Assembly (NCBI GenBank): GCA_002356215.1 | Contig: AP017959.1 | Location: 1,178,001-1,242,000, forward strand | Direction of reading: 5' to 3' | DNA length: 64,000 bases | Source: [Synechococcus] sp. NIES-970 | Lineage (GTDB): Bacteria; Cyanobacteriota; Cyanobacteriia; Cyanobacteriales; MRBY01 | In this document: positions 13,494-61,981 of the stretch, in pieces | Numbering within the stretch: the first letter of the stretch is position 1 | Layout of the letters: each line of letters starts with the position of its first letter | Translations under genes and position numbers: made by a program | Notes under the pieces: model-generated | Databases searched by the model: none | Seen by the model: only the letters and a program-made list of their open reading frames with translations | Told to the model about the DNA's origin: nothing

Positions 13494-14330
13494 CTAGGGC
13501 AACCAAGGATATTGCCGAAAATCAGGCGATCGCTTCTCCAGAAATGCTTGTTTTCCTTCTTGGCCTTCGGCGGTCATGTAGTAGAGCATCGTCGCATTAC
13601 CAGCCAGCTCTTGCAGACCAACTTGACCGTCACAATCAGCATTGAGAGCCGCCTTGAGGCAACGAATGGCGATCGGGCTTTTGTCCAACACTTCCCGTGC
13701 CCATTGCACGCCCTCTGCCTCCAATTGTTCAACAGGAACAACCCGGTTGACCAAGCCCATATCTAGAGCTTCATTGGCATCATACTGACGACAAAGAAAC
13801 CATATTTCCCGCGCTTTCTTTTGACCGACGATTCGTGCCATATAACTGGCCCCAAATCCACCATCAAAGCTCCCTACCTTTGGCCCTGTTTGCCCAAAAA
13901 TTGCATTGTCCGCTGCAATGGTTAAATCACACAGGAGATGCAGCACATGGCCCCCACCAATGGCATAACCAGCGACAAGGGCGATGACCACCTTAGGCAT
14001 CGAGCGGATTAATTTTTGGAGATCCAGAACATTTAGGCGAGGCACACCATCCTGGTCTACGTAACCTCCCACACCCCGCACTGATTGATCCCCGCCTGAG
14101 CAAAACGCATATTTGCCATCCGTATGGGGGCCAGCACCAGTCAGCAGAACGACACCAATAGCCGGGTCTTCGCGGGCATCACAAAAAGCCTCATACATTT
14201 CAAAAACCGTTTGGGGCCTAAAGGCATTGCGTTTGTGGGGACGGTTAATCGTAATCTTTGCAATGCCATCCAACTTTTGGTAGACAATATCTTCGTAGGG
14301 TTTGACAACTTGCCAAGCAAGAGATTCCAT
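13494..14330 (-). CDS. menB: 1,4-dihydroxy-2-naphthoyl-CoA synthase MenB
   Basis: Crotonase-fold enzyme that closes the second ring of the naphthoquinone in phylloquinone (vitamin K1) synthesis; phylloquinone is the A1 acceptor of photosystem I. From the ATG at 14330 it has 278 residues. Visible: [32 protein letters not shown] (oxyanion-hole region), [41 protein letters not shown] and the MenB-type C-terminus [14 protein letters not shown] start 30 bp upstream (14360) would add ten basic residues and is not favoured. Other men genes are not nearby. Confidence 0.95.
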
Positions 14331-14679
14331 AGTTTTTTTTCGACGATGACTGCCCGTCATCTTAGCCTATTCCCTCTCCTCCAACATTCCTGGCCCTGGG
14401 CTGATGAGGCGTAGAGATATGAATATGTTCTCAACATAAAGGGACAGAGGAACATTGCTTATTTGTTAACTTTTCTTTAAAGGAAAGGAAAATTTCAAAT
14501 TATTTTCTGGTTATTTTTCGGCAAAAAATTAAATTAGTCTTAAGTATGCTTAGGATCAAGAAAAAAGCGAAGAGAATATGAGTGGGATCAACTCAATTGC
14601 ATTTAAAAGCTTTTAAATGAAACTTCAAACAAGTATCAAGATTACAGACCTTAATTTTTTTAGAATTCAGGACAAAGCC
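14331..14679. other. Intergenic region upstream of menB and the zinc-ribbon micro-protein
   Basis: 349 bp, AT-rich in the right half (runs such as TTAAATTAG). An open frame at 14617 extends the micro-protein by 21 residues, but that part has no conserved features. No hairpin, repeat or known binding site stood out. Confidence 0.4.
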
Positions 14680-14856
14680 ATGGACTGTTCGTATTCGCTT
14701 CCTTGTCCCAATTGTGGTGCTTCGGCTCTTCGTCGTTATTTTCATAATTCTAGCTTGCGGGAAACCACCTGCGACGCCTGCGATTACTTGTTGGTTAGCT
14801 GCGAAGAAACAGGTAATGTCGTCGAATCTTATGCACCCGGCCTCTATGATTTTTAA
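14680..14856 (+). CDS. Zinc-ribbon micro-protein, unknown function
   Basis: 58 residues from the ATG at 14680. Two CX2C knuckles, CPNC (residues 9-12) and CDAC (~34-37), are separated by a short basic loop, the geometry of a small zinc ribbon. Short proteins like this occur across cyanobacteria and are sometimes wrongly labelled PriA fragments; no helicase part is present. Role unknown; nucleic-acid or protein binding is the usual use of the fold. The in-frame ATG at 14617 gives a 79-residue alternative. Confidence 0.75.
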   Translation: MDCSYSLPCPNCGASALRRYFHNSSLRETTCDACDYLLVSCEETGNVVESYAPGLYDF

Positions 14857-15088
14857 GCTGACTTAGCTACGGTTTTCTTGCGGCGATCGCCACAATTTTT
14901 TAAAACGTTTTTTGTCACCATCTAGACAAAATCTTTTACCCCAACCCTAATATCATGCAAGACTGGCACCCCAGATATTTTCACTGGGCCGCATCCTAGG
15001 CGGGATCTAAACCAGTAAGTCTCGGCTGCTATGCTCAGATCCCATGGTCTTGTTTTAGTGGTCTGGGAGTCTTCTTCCTGTGATAATT

Positions 15089-15125
15089 GCCAGGGTAAAA
15101 ATGATGATTACTTTTTTACTCTGGC
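15089..15125 (-). terminator. Hairpin downstream of the response-regulator gene
   Basis: A 13-bp stem (GCCAGGGTAAAAA with TTTTTACTCTGGC, one G-T pair) and 11-nt loop, 19 bp past the response-regulator stop. There is no T tract outside the stem, so it may be a weak terminator or a 3' stabilising hairpin. Confidence 0.4.
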
Positions 15126-15144
15126 CCATTCCACGCCACATTAT

Positions 15145-15900
15145 TTAGCCAAATCGATAACCAAAACCCCGCACTGTGATCAAATATTCTGGTTGACTGG
15201 GGTCTAGTTCTAGTTTTTCCCGTAGCCAACGGATATGTACATCGACAGTTTTTGTATCCCCAAGAAAATCAGCCCCCCAAACTTGTTCAATGAGCTGATC
15301 TCGGGACCAAACCCGTCGAGGATAGCTCATAAATAGTTCTAGAAGTCGATATTCTTTCGGTGATAGATTGACCTCTTCTCCCCGCACCATCACACGACAT
15401 TCTTCAGGGAATAAAGAAATATCTTTAAACTGACGTACAGAATTTTTGGGGGTACTCCGAATAAATTGCTGTCGTCGCAACAGGGCACGACACCGCGCCA
15501 CTAATTCTCGCAAGCTAAATGGTTTGGTGAGATAGTCATCGGCTCCCACCTCAAGACCCAGAACACGGTCTGTTTCACTGGCTTTGGCACTGAGCACAAG
15601 AATGGGAATAGTATTCCCTTGATATCTCAAGAAGCGGCACAAATCTAGACCATTCACCTCTGGCAGCATAATGTCTAGGATGACGAGGTCTAGAGGCATA
15701 TCCGGAGCATTAAATTCTGGGTTCTGCAGCATATTCAGACCTGTCCGACCATTGTCTGCGAAAAAGACTTCATAGCCTTCTTCTTCTAGGCCCATCACAA
15801 TCATGTCACGAATGACCGCTTCATCTTCCACGACGAGGATCCGTGCTTTCGTCGATAGTTCAGCGTCTAGGGTATGCGACATCAAATCAAGGGAAAGCAT
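15145..15900 (-). CDS. OmpR/PhoB-family response regulator (SphR-like)
   Basis: 251 residues. The receiver domain (~20-140) has the acidic pair VVEDE, the phospho-acceptor in LVILDIMLPEVNG, the conserved SAKAS switch residue and Lys in DYLTKPFS. The C-terminal winged helix (~155-251) has the OmpR signature (LSPKEYRLLELFMSYPRRVWSR, TVDVHIRWLREKLE, VRGFGYRFG). The N-terminal extension of ~18 residues before ARILVVEDE resembles cyanobacterial SphR/PhoB proteins, which control phosphate starvation, but no sphS kinase or pho box is seen here, so the symbol is withheld. An alternative ATG is six codons in. It lies 116 bp downstream of a GAF-only photoreceptor-like gene on the same strand. Confidence 0.85.
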   Translation of the reverse strand: MLSLDLMSHTLDAELSTKARILVVEDEAVIRDMIVMGLEEEGYEVFFADNGRTGLNMLQNPEFNAPDMPLDLVILDIMLPEVNGLDLCRFLRYQGNTIPILVLSAKASETDRVLGLEVGADDYLTKPFSLRELVARCRALLRRQQFIRSTPKNSVRQFKDISLFPEECRVMVRGEEVNLSPKEYRLLELFMSYPRRVWSRDQLIEQVWGADFLGDTKTVDVHIRWLREKLELDPSQPEYLITVRGFGYRFG

Positions 15901-16016: not shown

Positions 16017-16505
16017 CTAGCCCATTTGTTGTAAATCCGAACTGAGGCTTTGGGCTTGATTTTTGATGAATTCTACGTCTGCGATTGACCAGGGACGCAT
16101 TTCATGGTGATGAGCTGCCAATAGCCCCCATAATCGCTGTTGGACAATAATCGGTGCAACCAAATCTGCCTGGACATTGATAGAGGCTAAAAACGTTAAA
16201 TGACAGGGATCCAAGCCACTCGCTCCCACATCTGCAATTTGTAAAATTTTTCCTTGAAGATACTGTTGGGCATAATCCTCCGTAAAGCAATCATCGGCCC
16301 CTGTAGATCCTAAAATCGAAAATCTATTTTGATTCAGGGATTCGATGATGACTTGTCCTTTCCATTCCCGATAGAAGTAGTAAATAACAACGCGACTGAC
16401 CTGGAGTTTAGAACGTGTTTGATCCGTGACTTGTTGTAACACCTGGTTACGGGTTAGGGTGCGATTGAGTCGCTCATTCACCTGATGGAGACTTCGATCA
16501 AACAT
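16017..16505 (-). CDS. Stand-alone GAF protein with DXCF-type cyanobacteriochrome motifs
   Basis: 162 residues forming a single GAF domain with short flanking helices and no output domain. It has Asp71-Asp72-Cys73-Phe74, matching the DXCF motif of two-cysteine cyanobacteriochromes, and Cys101-His102 at the place of the canonical bilin-attaching cysteine and its histidine. The two cysteines are 28 residues apart, the spacing I recall for TePixJ-type photoreceptors. The segment after the second cysteine (VQADLVAPIIVQQRLWGLLAAHHH) is the usual phytochrome/CBCR GAF strand. Known DXCF proteins sense blue versus green light; binding of phycoviolobilin/phycocyanobilin here is inference. The adjacent OmpR-type regulator on the same strand could be a partner. 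Confidence 0.8.
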   Translation of the reverse strand: MFDRSLHQVNERLNRTLTRNQVLQQVTDQTRSKLQVSRVVIYYFYREWKGQVIIESLNQNRFSILGSTGADDCFTEDYAQQYLQGKILQIADVGASGLDPCHLTFLASINVQADLVAPIIVQQRLWGLLAAHHHEMRPWSIADVEFIKNQAQSLSSDLQQMG

Positions 16506-16632: not shown

Positions 16633-16670
16633 AAAAAAGCCCCGCATGGCCAGGAATGGATGCAAGGGCT
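16633..16670 (-). terminator. Intrinsic terminator of petH
   Basis: On the minus strand AGCCC...TGCAT pairs with ATGC...GGGCT (imperfect, one offset base) around a 12-nt loop, followed by six T; 58 bp past the petH stop. Confidence 0.65.
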
Positions 16671-16727: not shown

Positions 16728-18617
<1,890 letters not shown>

Positions 18618-24673: not shown

Positions 24674-26968
24674 ATGTTTTATCTATCCAAATTCCCCCCC
24701 AAGCTCGCCCAAAGGTGGATCAGGATTCTGCTTCTGGCTTTGGTCTACTATGGCACCGCAGAAATTTCACGCTTGGTTGCTGCCACGCCTCAATCTGTCA
24801 CCCCGGTGTGGCCCCCCGATGGATTTGCCCTTGCTGCGACCTTAATTTATGGTTATCCAATTTTGCCTGGGGTTTTTCTGGGTTCATTCTTAGCCAATAT
24901 TTGGGCTTTTTTTCAGTCTGGGAGCTTTCCTCAAGCGGTTATCTCTGTACTCCAAGTTTTGGCGATCGCCTTAGGCACAACCGCTGGAATTGGCTGTGGC
25001 AGATATCTATTAGTACGGAATATTCAACACAAAAACCCCTTAAAAAAGTTTGATGATCTCTGTAGATTACTATTGCTTGCGGGGACCGTTGCCCCAGCGA
25101 TCAACGCCAGTAGCGGCATTCTCGCCCTGGCGATCGGTGGTAGCATCCCCTGGTCAGCAGTGGGTCAAGAATGGCTAACTTGGTGGATTTCCAATATTTC
25201 TGGTATTTATATCTTCACCCCGGTACTCATTAGCTGGTATGAGCTTTTTCAGGATAAACCCTACGCAACCTTTAAGCATTGGTTTGGCCTAGACCATCAA
25301 AAACATTCCCGTCGATCACCCCAGAAAATCTGGGTTTATTTTCTCCACACAAAATTCATTGAAGCCCTTTGTTTATTAACAATAATTGGCCTAATTAGCT
25401 ATCTTTCCTTTTATCAAGAATTTCATTTGGAATATATGCTAATGCCCTACCTTATCTGGATTGTGATTCGCTTTGGGCAGCTTGGAGTGACAAACGCCAT
25501 TGTCGTGATTACAACCTTAGCCGTATTTGGGACGGTACGAGAATTGGGGACATTTGCCAGTGAAAATATTAATCAATCCCTCCTGCATCTACAGTTATTT
25601 ATCGTGGTGGTGGTGGGTACTAGCTTAAGCCTAACTGCAACTATTACTGAAAAGAAAGAAGCCTTTGACAACTTACAAAAATCAAAAATTTATCTACAGG
25701 AAAAAACAGATCAGCTTGAGGCAAGTAAAGTAAATCTCAAAAAGACTGCTGTTCTATTAGAACAACAAAATCTTGAACTCTTTGAAGCAAAGCAAACCGC
25801 TGACAATGCAAACCGGTCTAAAACGAAATTTCTGTCTAGTATGAGTCATGAATTACGCACTCCCCTCAATGCCATTTTGGGTTTAGTGGAGCTACTTAAA
25901 GACTCTGAAAATTTAGATGAGTTTGAAAAGGAAGACCTCCAAATAGTTGGAGATTCTGGTCGACATTTACTCAGTCTTATTGAAGATATCTTAGATATTT
26001 CCCGTATTGAAGCTGGCAAAATTGAATTACAGCCCCAAAGGGTTGATCTTCCTCAATTTCTTCAGAAAATTAGAGGCATTATTCAATCACAGATCAAGCA
26101 GGAAAAGGTTCAATTAATTTGTGACTTTTCTGAATCTCTGCCCACAGTAATTTATGCAGATGAAAAAAGACTGAAGCAAGTGCTCTTAAATTTGCTGCAA
26201 AACGCTGTGAAATTTACAGAAAAAGGTCAAATCATTTTTCAAGTAAAACAATCTTTGTCCCCTGGAATTGCTGATTCTCATATCCTCCTATCTTTCGTAG
26301 TAGAAGATTCAGGCATTGGTATTGATGCGGATAAAAAGCACTTGATTTTTTTACCCTTCGAACAAACGGGTAAATCTAAATTTAAAGCTCAGGGCACAGG
26401 CTTGGGCCTCGCCATTAGCCAAGAGATTGTCCGCATGATGGGCGGCAATATTGTTGTAGATAGTCAGCTAGGTGTTGGTAGTAAATTTCAATTCATGATT
26501 TATGTTGATCCAGTGACTGATGGGGAACACGTACCACCAGATTCTCCTCAGCCACTGTTTGTTTTAGATAAAAATTTGGCGCAAAAACTTCCTCTGAAAA
26601 TCCTTTTGGCAGAAGACAACTTAACCAATCAAAAGGTTATTTTGAAAATCCTGAATAGCTTAGGTTATGAGGTAACAGTCGTCGCCAATGGCCTGGCTGT
26701 TTTGGCAGCGGTAGAAAGGGAAACCTATGATGTGATCTTGATGGATATGCAAATGCCAGAAATGGATGGCCTAGAGGCGACGCGACAACTGGTGAATTTG
26801 AATTTAGATCCACGTCCTTACATTATTGCTTTGACCGCAAATGCGATGCACCATGACCGTTTGGCCTGTTTGAATGCGGGAATGGATGACTATATTACTA
26901 AACCGATTTACATTGGGCATCTGGTGCAGGCTTTATGGCGATCGCAATCCCATCGTGTTTTAGCTTGA
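24674..26968 (+). CDS. MASE1-type hybrid sensor histidine kinase with C-terminal receiver
   Basis: 764 residues. Residues ~15-310 form the eight-helix MASE1 membrane sensor domain (VTPVWPPDGFALAATL, LAIGGSIPWS), then a coiled coil (~330-385), HisKA with the phospho-acceptor SSMSHELRTPLNAILG (~395), HATPase with N box LLQNAVKFTEKG, G1 VEDSGIGID and G2 GTGLGLAIS, and a receiver domain (~640-760; LLAEDNLTNQ, DVILMDMQMPEMDG, ITKPIYIG). All catalytic motifs are present. No HPt domain or partner gene is adjacent. A second MASE1 protein, a GGDEF cyclase, is encoded at 58.6-60.1 kb. The ligand is unknown. Confidence 0.92.
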   Translation: MFYLSKFPPKLAQRWIRILLLALVYYGTAEISRLVAATPQSVTPVWPPDGFALAATLIYGYPILPGVFLGSFLANIWAFFQSGSFPQAVISVLQVLAIALGTTAGIGCGRYLLVRNIQHKNPLKKFDDLCRLLLLAGTVAPAINASSGILALAIGGSIPWSAVGQEWLTWWISNISGIYIFTPVLISWYELFQDKPYATFKHWFGLDHQKHSRRSPQKIWVYFLHTKFIEALCLLTIIGLISYLSFYQEFHLEYMLMPYLIWIVIRFGQLGVTNAIVVITTLAVFGTVRELGTFASENINQSLLHLQLFIVVVVGTSLSLTATITEKKEAFDNLQKSKIYLQEKTDQLEASKVNLKKTAVLLEQQNLELFEAKQTADNANRSKTKFLSSMSHELRTPLNAILGLVELLKDSENLDEFEKEDLQIVGDSGRHLLSLIEDILDISRIEAGKIELQPQRVDLPQFLQKIRGIIQSQIKQEKVQLICDFSESLPTVIYADEKRLKQVLLNLLQNAVKFTEKGQIIFQVKQSLSPGIADSHILLSFVVEDSGIGIDADKKHLIFLPFEQTGKSKFKAQGTGLGLAISQEIVRMMGGNIVVDSQLGVGSKFQFMIYVDPVTDGEHVPPDSPQPLFVLDKNLAQKLPLKILLAEDNLTNQKVILKILNSLGYEVTVVANGLAVLAAVERETYDVILMDMQMPEMDGLEATRQLVNLNLDPRPYIIALTANAMHHDRLACLNAGMDDYITKPIYIGHLVQALWRSQSHRVLA

Positions 26969-58563: not shown

Positions 58564-60108
58564 TCACACAGAAGGCAGTCCTCCAGTAACGACAATGCGA
58601 TTGCGTCCCTGTTGTTTGGCTAGGTAAAGGGCTTGGTCTGCCTGTTCTAAAAATGAAGCTGCCTGGGTTTGCTCTTGGGGGATACCGCTAAATGCGCCAA
58701 TGCTAACAGTAATGATTCGATGGTCATTATCTGTATTTTCGTGGGCAATTTCAAGGTTGAGGACTGTGCGCCGGATTCGTTTGGCAACGACCGTTGCCCC
58801 CTGCTGATCTGTGTCAGGTAAAATCACCACAAATTCCTCGCCACCATAGCGGGCCACCAGGTCTGTTTGTCGTTGGAGGGTGTATTTAATTGCCTGGGAA
58901 ATTTTCCAGAGACATTCATCACCCTTCTGATGGCCATAGAAGTCGTTGTAGCGCTTAAAGTAATCCACATCAATCAGCAGCAACGCAAGGGATTTTTGTT
59001 CGCGTCGTAATCGCAGCCATTCTTCGGTCAGTCTTTGGTTAAAACAGCGCCGATTGGCGATTTGGGTAAGGCCGTCTAGGTGAACTAATTTTTGTAGTTC
59101 TCGGTTTGTGTGGCGCAGAAGGGCTTCACTATGTCTCAGCTCCTTTGTCCGTTCTAAAACAAGTTTTGTGGAATTATCTAGGGCTTTTTTGAGGGAAGCT
59201 TGGGCTTGGCTCCGCTCGTCAACAGCTGCGGACAGCAGCAGGGAATTTAAGGCAAAAACGGCCATGAAAGACTGTAAATAGAGCAATGATTGGTTTTGGG
59301 TATCTAAAACAAAAGCCCCTAAACCATGGGCTGTGGCGTAAATTGCCAAAAGGGAAACCATACTAACCAATACACTAGAGATAAAGGCGCCATAGCGGAA
59401 GACAGTCCAGTTCAAAATCAGTAGCAGTAAATAGGCGATCGGCTCACTCTGAATAAAAACGCCCCAACTGACTCCTCCAATAAGGGAAGGGATAACTATT
59501 AATTCCACCAGACCATATTTGATTTTTGGGGTAAAAAATTCTTTTCCTAAGAGAATGACTGGGGTGAAAATCAAGTGGGCAAGGGTACTTGCCAACCACC
59601 AGGTAAACCAGCTCAAGGGATAATCTGACCACTCCAGTCGTCCAGCTAAAATGATGCTGGTAATGCCAATAAAGGCAGAAGCCATAGGAGATAGAGCCGC
59701 CGCCGCAATATAAATGGAGACATTGCGCACGCGGCTAAAAAATTGCTGCTTGTGGATATATTTATCCAGAATGAACTGAGCTAGATAAGGTTGAACAAGA
59801 TTTGCGGCAATGCAACCAAAGTTGACCCAAAAAAAAGCAGCGGGGCTAATATTTGGGTCCCGTGCAAGTAAATCAACGGAGATAATCCCGAAGGAGCCGA
59901 GGGCGATGCTCGGCAAAATTTGATTGCCAAAGAGTAAAATTAGGCCCAGAGTCAGCCCTGATGGTAGCCAGACTGAGGCAACAGTTCCCGGCAAGGTGGT
60001 AAAAACAAGGCTGATCTTGGCAGCCCAAATATAGGCGATCGCCAAACCAATATTTAAAGCCAATAATTGCAGCCACCGACTGCGAGATAACCGGAAAAAA
60101 TAGATCAT
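58564..60108 (-). CDS. MASE1-GGDEF diguanylate cyclase
   Basis: 514 residues. MASE1 membrane domain (~10-300; VASVWLPSGLTLGLIL) and a coiled coil (~305-345) lead to a GGDEF domain (~350-505) with the active-site loop ARYGGEEFVVILP and an upstream RQTD (RxxD) inhibitory site five residues before it. Both motifs suggest active c-di-GMP synthesis with product inhibition. The MASE1 part is similar to that of the hybrid kinase at 24.7 kb. Ligand unknown. Confidence 0.92.
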   Translation of the reverse strand: MIYFFRLSRSRWLQLLALNIGLAIAYIWAAKISLVFTTLPGTVASVWLPSGLTLGLILLFGNQILPSIALGSFGIISVDLLARDPNISPAAFFWVNFGCIAANLVQPYLAQFILDKYIHKQQFFSRVRNVSIYIAAAALSPMASAFIGITSIILAGRLEWSDYPLSWFTWWLASTLAHLIFTPVILLGKEFFTPKIKYGLVELIVIPSLIGGVSWGVFIQSEPIAYLLLLILNWTVFRYGAFISSVLVSMVSLLAIYATAHGLGAFVLDTQNQSLLYLQSFMAVFALNSLLLSAAVDERSQAQASLKKALDNSTKLVLERTKELRHSEALLRHTNRELQKLVHLDGLTQIANRRCFNQRLTEEWLRLRREQKSLALLLIDVDYFKRYNDFYGHQKGDECLWKISQAIKYTLQRQTDLVARYGGEEFVVILPDTDQQGATVVAKRIRRTVLNLEIAHENTDNDHRIITVSIGAFSGIPQEQTQAASFLEQADQALYLAKQQGRNRIVVTGGLPSV

Positions 60109-60296: not shown

Positions 60297-61646
60297 TTAC
60301 CCATTAAGGGTTTGGCAGAGGCGACGGAAATGCTCGCCCCGTTCCTCAAAACTCCGATATTGATCAAAGCTGGCACAGGCCGGAGAAAGGAGCACAACTT
60401 TGGGTTTGACCTGGGGAATCAGCGTCACACTGCGGGCGATCGCCTGGTCGAGGGTTTCCACAATTTCATACTGGGAATAGTAATGATCTTGGAGTAATTG
60501 GGCAAACTGGGGGGCAGCATCACCGATGAGTAAAACAGCGGCGGCTTTTTCCTTGATTTTTGCGATCCATTGGTTGGGGTCCCCTTCCTTGGGGTCGCCT
60601 CCAGCAATAAGGATCGCTGGGGCCGCAACGGCATTTAAGCCCACTTCGGCGGCGTCATAATTGGTCGCTTTGCTGTCATTGATGAAAGCAACGCCCTGGT
60701 GTTGACATATTAATTCCAAGCGGTGGGGTACGCCGGGGAATGTGGCGATCGCCTCGGTGATTGCCCCCTTGTCAACATTGGCTAAACGGGCAGCGGCGAT
60801 CGCCAACAATAAATTTTGGAGATTGTGTTCTCCCACCATCTTCAGGAGAGAGATCGGCATGATCAATTCCCCAAAAGCCTTGACCCAAGCATCCTGGATA
60901 AATACTCCCCGAGCCGGATCACAGGGGAGATGTTCCGCCCCCCGCACACTCGTCCAATAGGCATCGGGCCATTTTTCTGCCTGCGATCGCAGAAATGGAT
61001 CATCCCCGTTCAACACCTGACGGCGGCTACGCTTTAACAATGAAGCCTTAATCGCCTCATAATTTTCGAGGGTATAGTGGCGAGCCAGATGATCGGGGGT
61101 AAAGGTTGTCCAAATACCGATCTGGGGCCGCAGGGTCGGCGCAGACTCAATTTGATAGCTGCTAATTTCTGCCACAATCCAATCTGGGGTCGTTTCTGCC
61201 AAGGCTAATTCGCAGGCAGCCCGACCGATGTTGCCACAGGCGGGGCCACCACAGCCAGCTTTTTTGAAAATGGCTTCCACCAGGGCAGTCGTGGTGGTTT
61301 TCCCATTTGTGCCCGTCACGCTGACCCAGGGTTTTTGGGCTAAATTTCGCCAGGCCAGTTCCATTTCGCCGATGGTATCGATCCCTTGGGCGCGGGCCTG
61401 TTGTAAAAAAGGAAGATCCCAAGGAACTCCCGGACTGACCACAATGAGATCTGGCTGATCGCCGCTTAAGTTCGGGGTGTAACCAAGCTGAACGGAGATT
61501 CCCTGGGCCGCGAGCTTTGTTTGGACAGCAACGAGATCTGCGTTGGTTTGGCGATCGCCTAACACCACATCCCAACCTTGCTGTTTTAATAGCCGTGCCG
61601 CCGCAATTCCCGAACGACCAATCCCAATGACAAGCGCTTGAGCCAT
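60297..61646 (-). CDS. murD: UDP-N-acetylmuramoylalanine-D-glutamate ligase
   Basis: 449 residues from the ATG at 61646. MurD adds D-Glu to UDP-MurNAc-L-Ala. N-terminal [24 protein letters not shown] loop [28 protein letters not shown], and the C-terminal [17 protein letters not shown] and [11 protein letters not shown] motifs. The frame stays open to 61925, but the extra 93 residues are not MurD-like. Downstream on the other strand is the DUF2997 cluster. Confidence 0.95.
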
Positions 61647-61981
61647 ACCAAATAATTTCGAAATAATTTCGCCAGACGAAAATGATCGCTGATTGTATCC
61701 AATTTTGGGGAGAGATTTTCTTTGCCTAAGCCCTAAAAGACGGTGACTGCGCAAAATTTTCCAGGGCGGCGATCGCCCAGCAAGCACCCCAAAAGGCCAT
61801 CCTATCGCTGTCAAAAATGAAAAGAATCTTACAATTTCGGGGGGCAAGCTACCCTCCCATTGTCGAGATTTGTTAAACTGCTGTAAACATAAATGTGCTC
61901 GAAAGTTAAGGGAAAAAATCCGCAATTTTGTACCGCGCCTACCCGCAAACTTTCAGACCATGCCAATGAGGAAGCGCACCC
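61647..61981. other. Divergent murD / DUF2997 intergenic region
   Basis: 335 bp. It carries the murD and DUF2997 promoters. A HIP1 octamer lies near 61770. No clear operator or hairpin was identified. Confidence 0.4.

Follow-up and report, generated by a model that had tools for sequence, protein, structure and literature searches.

A gene in the 3.12 Mb genome of [Synechococcus] sp. NIES-970 encodes a protein that sequence and modelling support as a stand-alone DXCF-type cyanobacteriochrome (CBCR) GAF domain. Judged by its relatives, the stand-alone state is a trait of a widespread orthologous family and not of this gene alone. We consider it rather probable that the protein is a free-standing ("short") DXCF cyanobacteriochrome, a blue/green-type photoswitch that would signal in trans by protein contact. 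The stretch of DNA that we analysed, 64,000 nucleotides long, is called the window throughout.

The GAF protein and its two cysteines

The original prediction described a protein of 162 residues with Asp71-Asp72-Cys73-Phe74 and Cys101-His102, 28 residues apart. Our translation agrees and adds the strand, which had not been given: read on the plus strand, positions 16017–16505 are broken by stops, and the open reading frame lies on the minus strand, with residue codons at 16020–16505 and the stop codon at 16017–16019 (Table 1). The protein is 77% identical to the copy in a close relative, Picosynechococcus sp. PCC 7117, and we take the window to belong to the genus Picosynechococcus, called the genus below. 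Pfam recognizes a GAF domain (PF01590, 4.7e-16, above its cut-off; two more GAF models score below theirs) and finds no output domain in the 162 residues. The lack of an output domain had also been predicted, and it holds both for this gene and for the whole orthologous family as found.

The minus-strand gene order is petH, a gap of 222 bp, the GAF gene, a gap of 116 bp and an OmpR/PhoB-type response regulator, so the same-strand OmpR-type neighbour of the original prediction is indeed there, downstream of the GAF gene. The start coordinate of petH is borrowed from its PCC 7117 homologue. A terminator-like site lies between petH and the GAF gene; the 2-kb region holds four such sites on both strands, against 1.8 expected by shuffling. 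Fusion or frameshift of the GAF gene into the regulator finds no support, given the 116-bp gap and the separate regulator of genomes that have no GAF gene beside it.

Table 1. Features on the minus strand of the window around the GAF gene
Feature	Position	Strand	Basis
OmpR/PhoB-type response regulator, probably SphR; direct neighbour in the genus only	15145..15900	minus	Pfam, NCBIfam, context
Stand-alone DXCF-type cyanobacteriochrome GAF protein, 162 aa	16017..16505	minus	translation, Pfam GAF, AlphaFold2 model, VIA-align to 4glq
Canonical Cys101-His102, ring-A linkage site	16200..16205	minus	position derived from ORF coordinates
DXCF motif, residues 71-74 (Cys73 codon 16287-16289)	16284..16295	minus	motif search
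Terminator-like hairpin and T-run between petH and the GAF gene	16640..16655	minus	consensus match only
petH, bifunctional CpcD-linker/ferredoxin-NADP reductase, upstream neighbour (context)	16728..17936	minus	NCBIfam NF058510 692.9 bits (cut-off 635); Pfam CpcD and NAD_binding_1

Cys73 and Cys101 are the only cysteines in the protein. When the letters of the protein were shuffled 200,000 times, the pattern D-x-C-F, 26 residues, C-H never arose. Translated in six frames, the window contains it once, in the GAF gene; D-x-C-F alone occurs ten times.

Both cysteines align with those of a structurally characterized photoreceptor. TePixJ, the PixJ GAF domain of Thermosynechococcus (4glq, 3vv4, 6p58), is the type member of the DXCF group and is like the GAF protein in fold and in its aligned DXCF and CH cysteines, 28 residues apart. 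TePixJ is a domain within a transducer of the chemotaxis type (its PDB name is 'methyl-accepting chemotaxis protein'), whereas the GAF protein is a GAF domain and nothing more. Using a profile built from 34 family members, Cys73 falls on the DPCF cysteine of TePixJ (3vv4) and Cys101 on the ECH cysteine, ungapped between them, and MAFFT agrees. In the AlphaFold2 model (mean pLDDT 88.9, pTM 0.84), residues 15–162 superpose on residues 436–584 of 4glq (VIA-align, Z 23.0, rmsd 1.6, 148 aligned residues, ∼27% identity). The offset of 421 at the start of this alignment carries residues 73 and 101 to positions 494 and 522 of 4glq, which we take to be the published TePixJ cysteines. That the two cysteines occupy the two bilin-linkage positions, as first proposed, was to be decided by an alignment check set beforehand, and profile, MAFFT and structural superposition all bear it out.

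The wider structural matches point the same way. The model fits CBCR GAF domains with Z scores of 18.7–23.2; the strongest PDB profile matches are CBCR GAFs or fluorescent proteins derived from one; and the best 50 Foldseek matches are cyanobacteriochrome or phytochrome GAF structures, or fluorescent proteins derived from them. The GAF fold is shared with the NpR3784-lineage GAF/miRFP670nano (Z 23.2), where a lone GAF is described as a small bilin-binding protein (PMC6336887), although that lineage is without the DXCF cysteine and miRFP670nano is engineered.

Taken as a cyanobacteriochrome, the protein has a GAF domain of the bilin type, homologous to CBCR GAFs of solved structure, and the ring-A Cys-His pair. 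It departs from the usual architecture, in which the GAF domain shares a chain with a kinase, chemotaxis or cyclase output, an arrangement that is typical rather than strictly defining. Its place in the DXCF subfamily follows from a second cysteine in D-x-C-F at the TePixJ position and from its grouping in the tree with two-cysteine DXCF GAFs. The host genome has one match to the ferredoxin-dependent bilin reductase family (PF05996, 3.1e-76).

A family of stand-alone GAF proteins

Relatives with the same architecture are common. Our searches of the order, the class and a phylum sample scored the best 9–12 candidates per genome in most genomes, so the genome counts are lower bounds. In the class, the family profile matches at least 132 of 388 genomes (E <= 1e-55); the 133 matches, two of them in one genome, are all in open frames of 136–267 codons, the 136-codon frame being a partial match (43–163 of 164). 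In the order, at least 139 of 291 genomes match the GAF protein (E <= 1e-34), one of them only in a long frame; of the 144 matches, 137 have frames no longer than 260 codons, and the frames of the remaining seven span 341–1158 codons. The phylum sample gives at least 44 of 292 genomes, and every match carries the label of the window's class or nearer. The distribution is patchy in both the class and the phylum sample.

The stand-alone proteins separate from the GAF domains of larger proteins. Ten genomes chosen as family holders yield 127 matches (E <= 1e-30) that split cleanly: 10 are stand-alone (224.7–279.4 bits, frames of 163–191 codons), and the remaining 117, whose frames all have 459 codons or more, do not exceed 180.0 bits. 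Our maximum-likelihood tree comprises 104 rows: 67 stand-alone proteins, 34 domains of multi-domain proteins and three solved structures; one stand-alone fragment was dropped. A single branch of length 0.87 and support 100/100 parts the 67 stand-alone rows from the 34 multi-domain rows, and TePixJ lies across it. With midpoint rooting, the stand-alone rows group at 95/90 with MD_L096_5_403, which has both motifs, and the long-branch MD_L008, and fall within a 78-row group with support 96/95. Some multi-domain DXCF GAFs of related genomes are the nearest tree relatives of the family. Both cysteines are present in 25 of the 34 multi-domain rows, a ratio that depends on the rows fetched.

The predicted bilin site is conserved among the family members sampled. 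All 67 stand-alone rows have Cys73, Phe74, Cys101 and His102, although the profile was built on members similar to the GAF protein, so that far-diverged members or members that had lost a cysteine could have been missed. Asp71 of the DXCF motif is present in 62 rows and replaced by Ser in five. Eight residues (Leu13, Tyr43, Tyr45, Leu57, Ser67, Thr68, Gly69 and Leu154) are family-specific, occurring in 91–100% of stand-alone rows and in at most 20% of two-cysteine multi-domain rows; Leu13, Tyr43, Tyr45 and Gly69, with the 0.87 branch, set the family apart from the multi-domain DXCF GAFs. In the AlphaFold2 model, residues 43, 45, 57 and 67–69 sit in the first two strands or in the loop toward the DXCF motif. 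A C-terminal tail resembling I-x-[DENQ]-[STNV] was found by script in 31 of 66 members. It is absent from all six genus members, the window protein included, so a conserved docking tail is a hint only.

Could the gene be a pseudogene-like relic, with a decaying or non-bilin GAF domain? It is short, it has no output domain, and in one genome pair its dN (0.158) is above that of its neighbours (0.012 and 0.036). However, dN/dS is well below 1 (0.04–0.11 by Nei–Gojobori in the 5 of 15 genus pairs with finite dS, the other ten being saturated). Since dS is 1.6–3.0 in four of these five, only one pair is far from saturation (dN/dS 0.040, dS 0.41). Together with the two invariant cysteines and an architecture that is the same throughout the family, this makes a relic extremely improbable.

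Most work on cyanobacteriochromes has treated them as input modules of kinases, chemotaxis transducers and cyclases. 'Single-GAF' cyanobacteriochromes are on record, in a passage that sets them against CBCRs with as many as seven GAF domains and is silent on whether they have an output domain (PMC6696110). Within the open-access literature on stand-alone or output-less cyanobacteriochromes, a scope outside which most subscription journals fall, we found no account of this family. The GAF module is known, but an output-less family across the class appears to be new. Its conservation in about a third of the sampled class genomes suggests that selection can maintain a bilin photoswitch as an entire protein in its own right.

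The neighbouring regulator and the search for a partner

The original prediction implied a tie between the GAF protein and the adjacent response regulator. The comparison of genomes does not support it: direct adjacency was seen in the genus only, and the regulator is near-universal and probably SphR, with an SphS-like kinase of its own.

Throughout the genus (six of six genomes) the regulator adjoins the GAF gene and is co-directional with it, and the order petH–GAF–regulator is kept. We compared these neighbourhoods with 20 loci from the order and 20 loci (19 genomes) from the rest of the class, covering ∼4–8.5 kb each and selected independently of the regulator; over these lengths, none of the 40 wider loci outside the genus contains it. 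One further locus, that of G023 (another family of the same order), was added after linkage had appeared there. In G023 the regulator lies ∼1.1 kb from the GAF gene, with an opposite-strand creatininase-like gene between the two.

The identity of the regulator comes from its own relatives. Its best NCBIfam match is PhoB, at 233.8 bits, below the equivalog cut-off of 296.2, so the name SphR or PhoB is drawn from context. In the four best-scoring loci outside the genus (L077–L080, one of them the source of the query) the regulator adjoins a PhoR/PnpS-like kinase, whose best NCBIfam matches are PnpS and PhoR, both below cut-off. In G023 (L131) PhoU then follows, above its NCBIfam cut-off. The regulator is therefore like known SphR/PhoB regulators in its best match and in its kinase and PhoU context, and unlike them in its PhoB score. 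A near-universal regulator that stands beside a phosphate-type kinase elsewhere and matches PhoB best is read as probably SphR, the phosphate regulator.

The best relative of that kinase in the window's genome is encoded at G000:C1:1626611-1627858, ∼430 kb from the regulator. The genes sphS and sphR are predicted to share an operon in some cyanobacteria and to be split in others, according to the relevant part of PMC1906773.

We weighed a light/phosphate switch in which the GAF protein signals specifically to the adjacent SphR. The co-directional adjacency throughout the genus, with only 116 bp between the genes in the window, would fit such a switch, as would the loose linkage in G023 and the location of the SphS-like kinase elsewhere in the window's genome (C1:1626611). 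Yet the regulator occurs in 112 of 120 order genomes (E <= 1e-90), against a GAF match in at least 139 of 291; it is missing from the 40 wider loci; it adjoins a kinase of its own in the four loci outside the genus; and it is nearly frozen, at 99% identity, between genomes whose GAF proteins are only 75–77% identical. Adjacency limited to the genus, next to a regulator that is near-universal and probably SphR, is weak evidence for a functional pair, and we regard the switch as highly unlikely. For the same reasons (near-universal presence, genus-only adjacency and a kinase neighbour elsewhere) we rejected the regulator as the partner in our main reading.

Some details of the surrounding DNA can be noted here. 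Neither the GAF gene nor the regulator has a Pho-box-like pattern (consensus with up to two mismatches) nearby; across the whole window it occurs 12 times, against a mean of 5.1 in shuffles (sd 2.35, largest 11). In four genomes of the genus (G001, G003, G004 and G005) the regulator is followed by murD, the family being assigned from the copy in PCC 7117. The nearest large ORF past the regulator of the window is instead menB (interval with the regulator, 13494-15900), and a murD-like ORF lies ∼44 kb away (60297-61925); this displacement places a rearrangement breakpoint probably downstream of the regulator.

No other neighbour emerges as a partner. By inspection of the 40 loci outside the genus, no gene family flanks the GAF gene directly in more than two. 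We listed 36 co-directional neighbours from 41 loci less L129 and scanned 20 of them with Pfam; L060 has kinase- or regulator-like neighbours on the opposite strand. The 20 are mixed (TatC, SNF2 helicase, permease, acetyl-CoA synthetase, argininosuccinate lyase and others), with one PAS/GAF histidine kinase (L052) and two proteins without a match. With no recurring neighbour, assignment of a partner from gene neighbourhood was rejected.

A partner of another kind is conceivable: the GAF protein might join the helical bundles of multi-domain GAF or histidine-kinase photoreceptors in trans, as one of their subunits or as an inhibitor. GAF proteins often dimerize through long N- and C-terminal helices, and the model keeps both (residues 2–34 and 141–161). 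The 117 long-frame matches in the ten genomes chosen as family holders would fit this role, but only two more matches (E <= 1e-30) come from the genome of the window. Moreover, the sequences point to no given kinase, and no kinase is a constant neighbour. We consider this role quite unlikely.

Proposed switching and signalling in trans

In DXCF domains the bilin is held by the canonical cysteine, and that of the DXCF motif forms a reversible bond with C10; typical members convert phycocyanobilin to phycoviolobilin and switch between blue and green (as described in parts of PMC5578081 and PMC11284453). We infer bilin binding, colour and contact signalling for the GAF protein by analogy. The single GAF domain would bind a phycocyanobilin-derived bilin at Cys101, and with each light-driven flip of the bilin Cys73 would make or break a further thioether, at C10; the result would be a switch of the blue/green or blue/teal type. 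Light would thereby alter the surface of the GAF domain or its terminal helices, changing how it associates with a partner protein whose gene lies elsewhere in the genome. Because the protein has no enzymatic or DNA-binding part, the signal would have to be passed in trans; in the model, the two long helices may be the natural contact surfaces. Several observations weigh against this reading: no gene neighbour is conserved, the family is patchily distributed, five of 67 rows have Ser in place of the DXCF Asp, and the C-terminal tail is far from universal and absent from the genus.

PixD is a short free-standing protein. As a cyanobacterial sensor that makes light-dependent contact with PixE, PixD offers a trans-acting precedent to which the GAF protein can be likened (described in part of PMC5899715). 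The two differ in that PixD is a flavin BLUF protein with a known partner, and we claim no homology between them.

Alternatively, the protein could bind bilin without signalling, as a free-standing carrier, a quencher or a phycocyanobilin-to-phycoviolobilin isomerase. It has neither an output domain nor a conserved partner gene, as such a role would allow. However, the chromophore of known DXCF domains stays covalently attached, which argues against a carrier or a released product, and a DXCF cysteine kept in all 67 stand-alone rows suits a photoswitch better than mere binding. That DXCF GAFs typically isomerize phycocyanobilin to phycoviolobilin unaided (part of PMC11284453) lends the isomerase some plausibility. 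Overall, we think a non-signalling role unlikely, and prefer the free-standing photoswitch acting by contact.

We also propose a wider generalization, for and against which we see the chances as even: across the class there may exist 'short cyanobacteriochromes', mostly single-copy stand-alone DXCF photoswitches that would diffuse as light signals and, according to colour, bind or let go of a shared partner, much as PixD or short LOV proteins do but with a bilin. If this is true, the lack of conserved neighbours and the chain end just past the signalling helix would mean a trans-acting output so far unrecognized in cyanobacterial light signalling. The family poses a testable question: what is bound, and under what light. 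It is also a natural source of small GAF proteins with two cysteines that could serve optogenetics or fluorescence work.

Other GAF and signalling proteins are encoded in the same genome. A single frame of 1470 codons carries six tandem GAF stretches (G000:C1:2793991-2797026), all weaker relatives of the GAF protein. Within the window, translations at 24674-26968 (plus strand) and 58564-60108 (minus strand) read as a pair of signalling proteins whose multi-pass membrane N-termini are alike; the C-terminal end resembles a hybrid histidine kinase in one and a GGDEF protein in the other.
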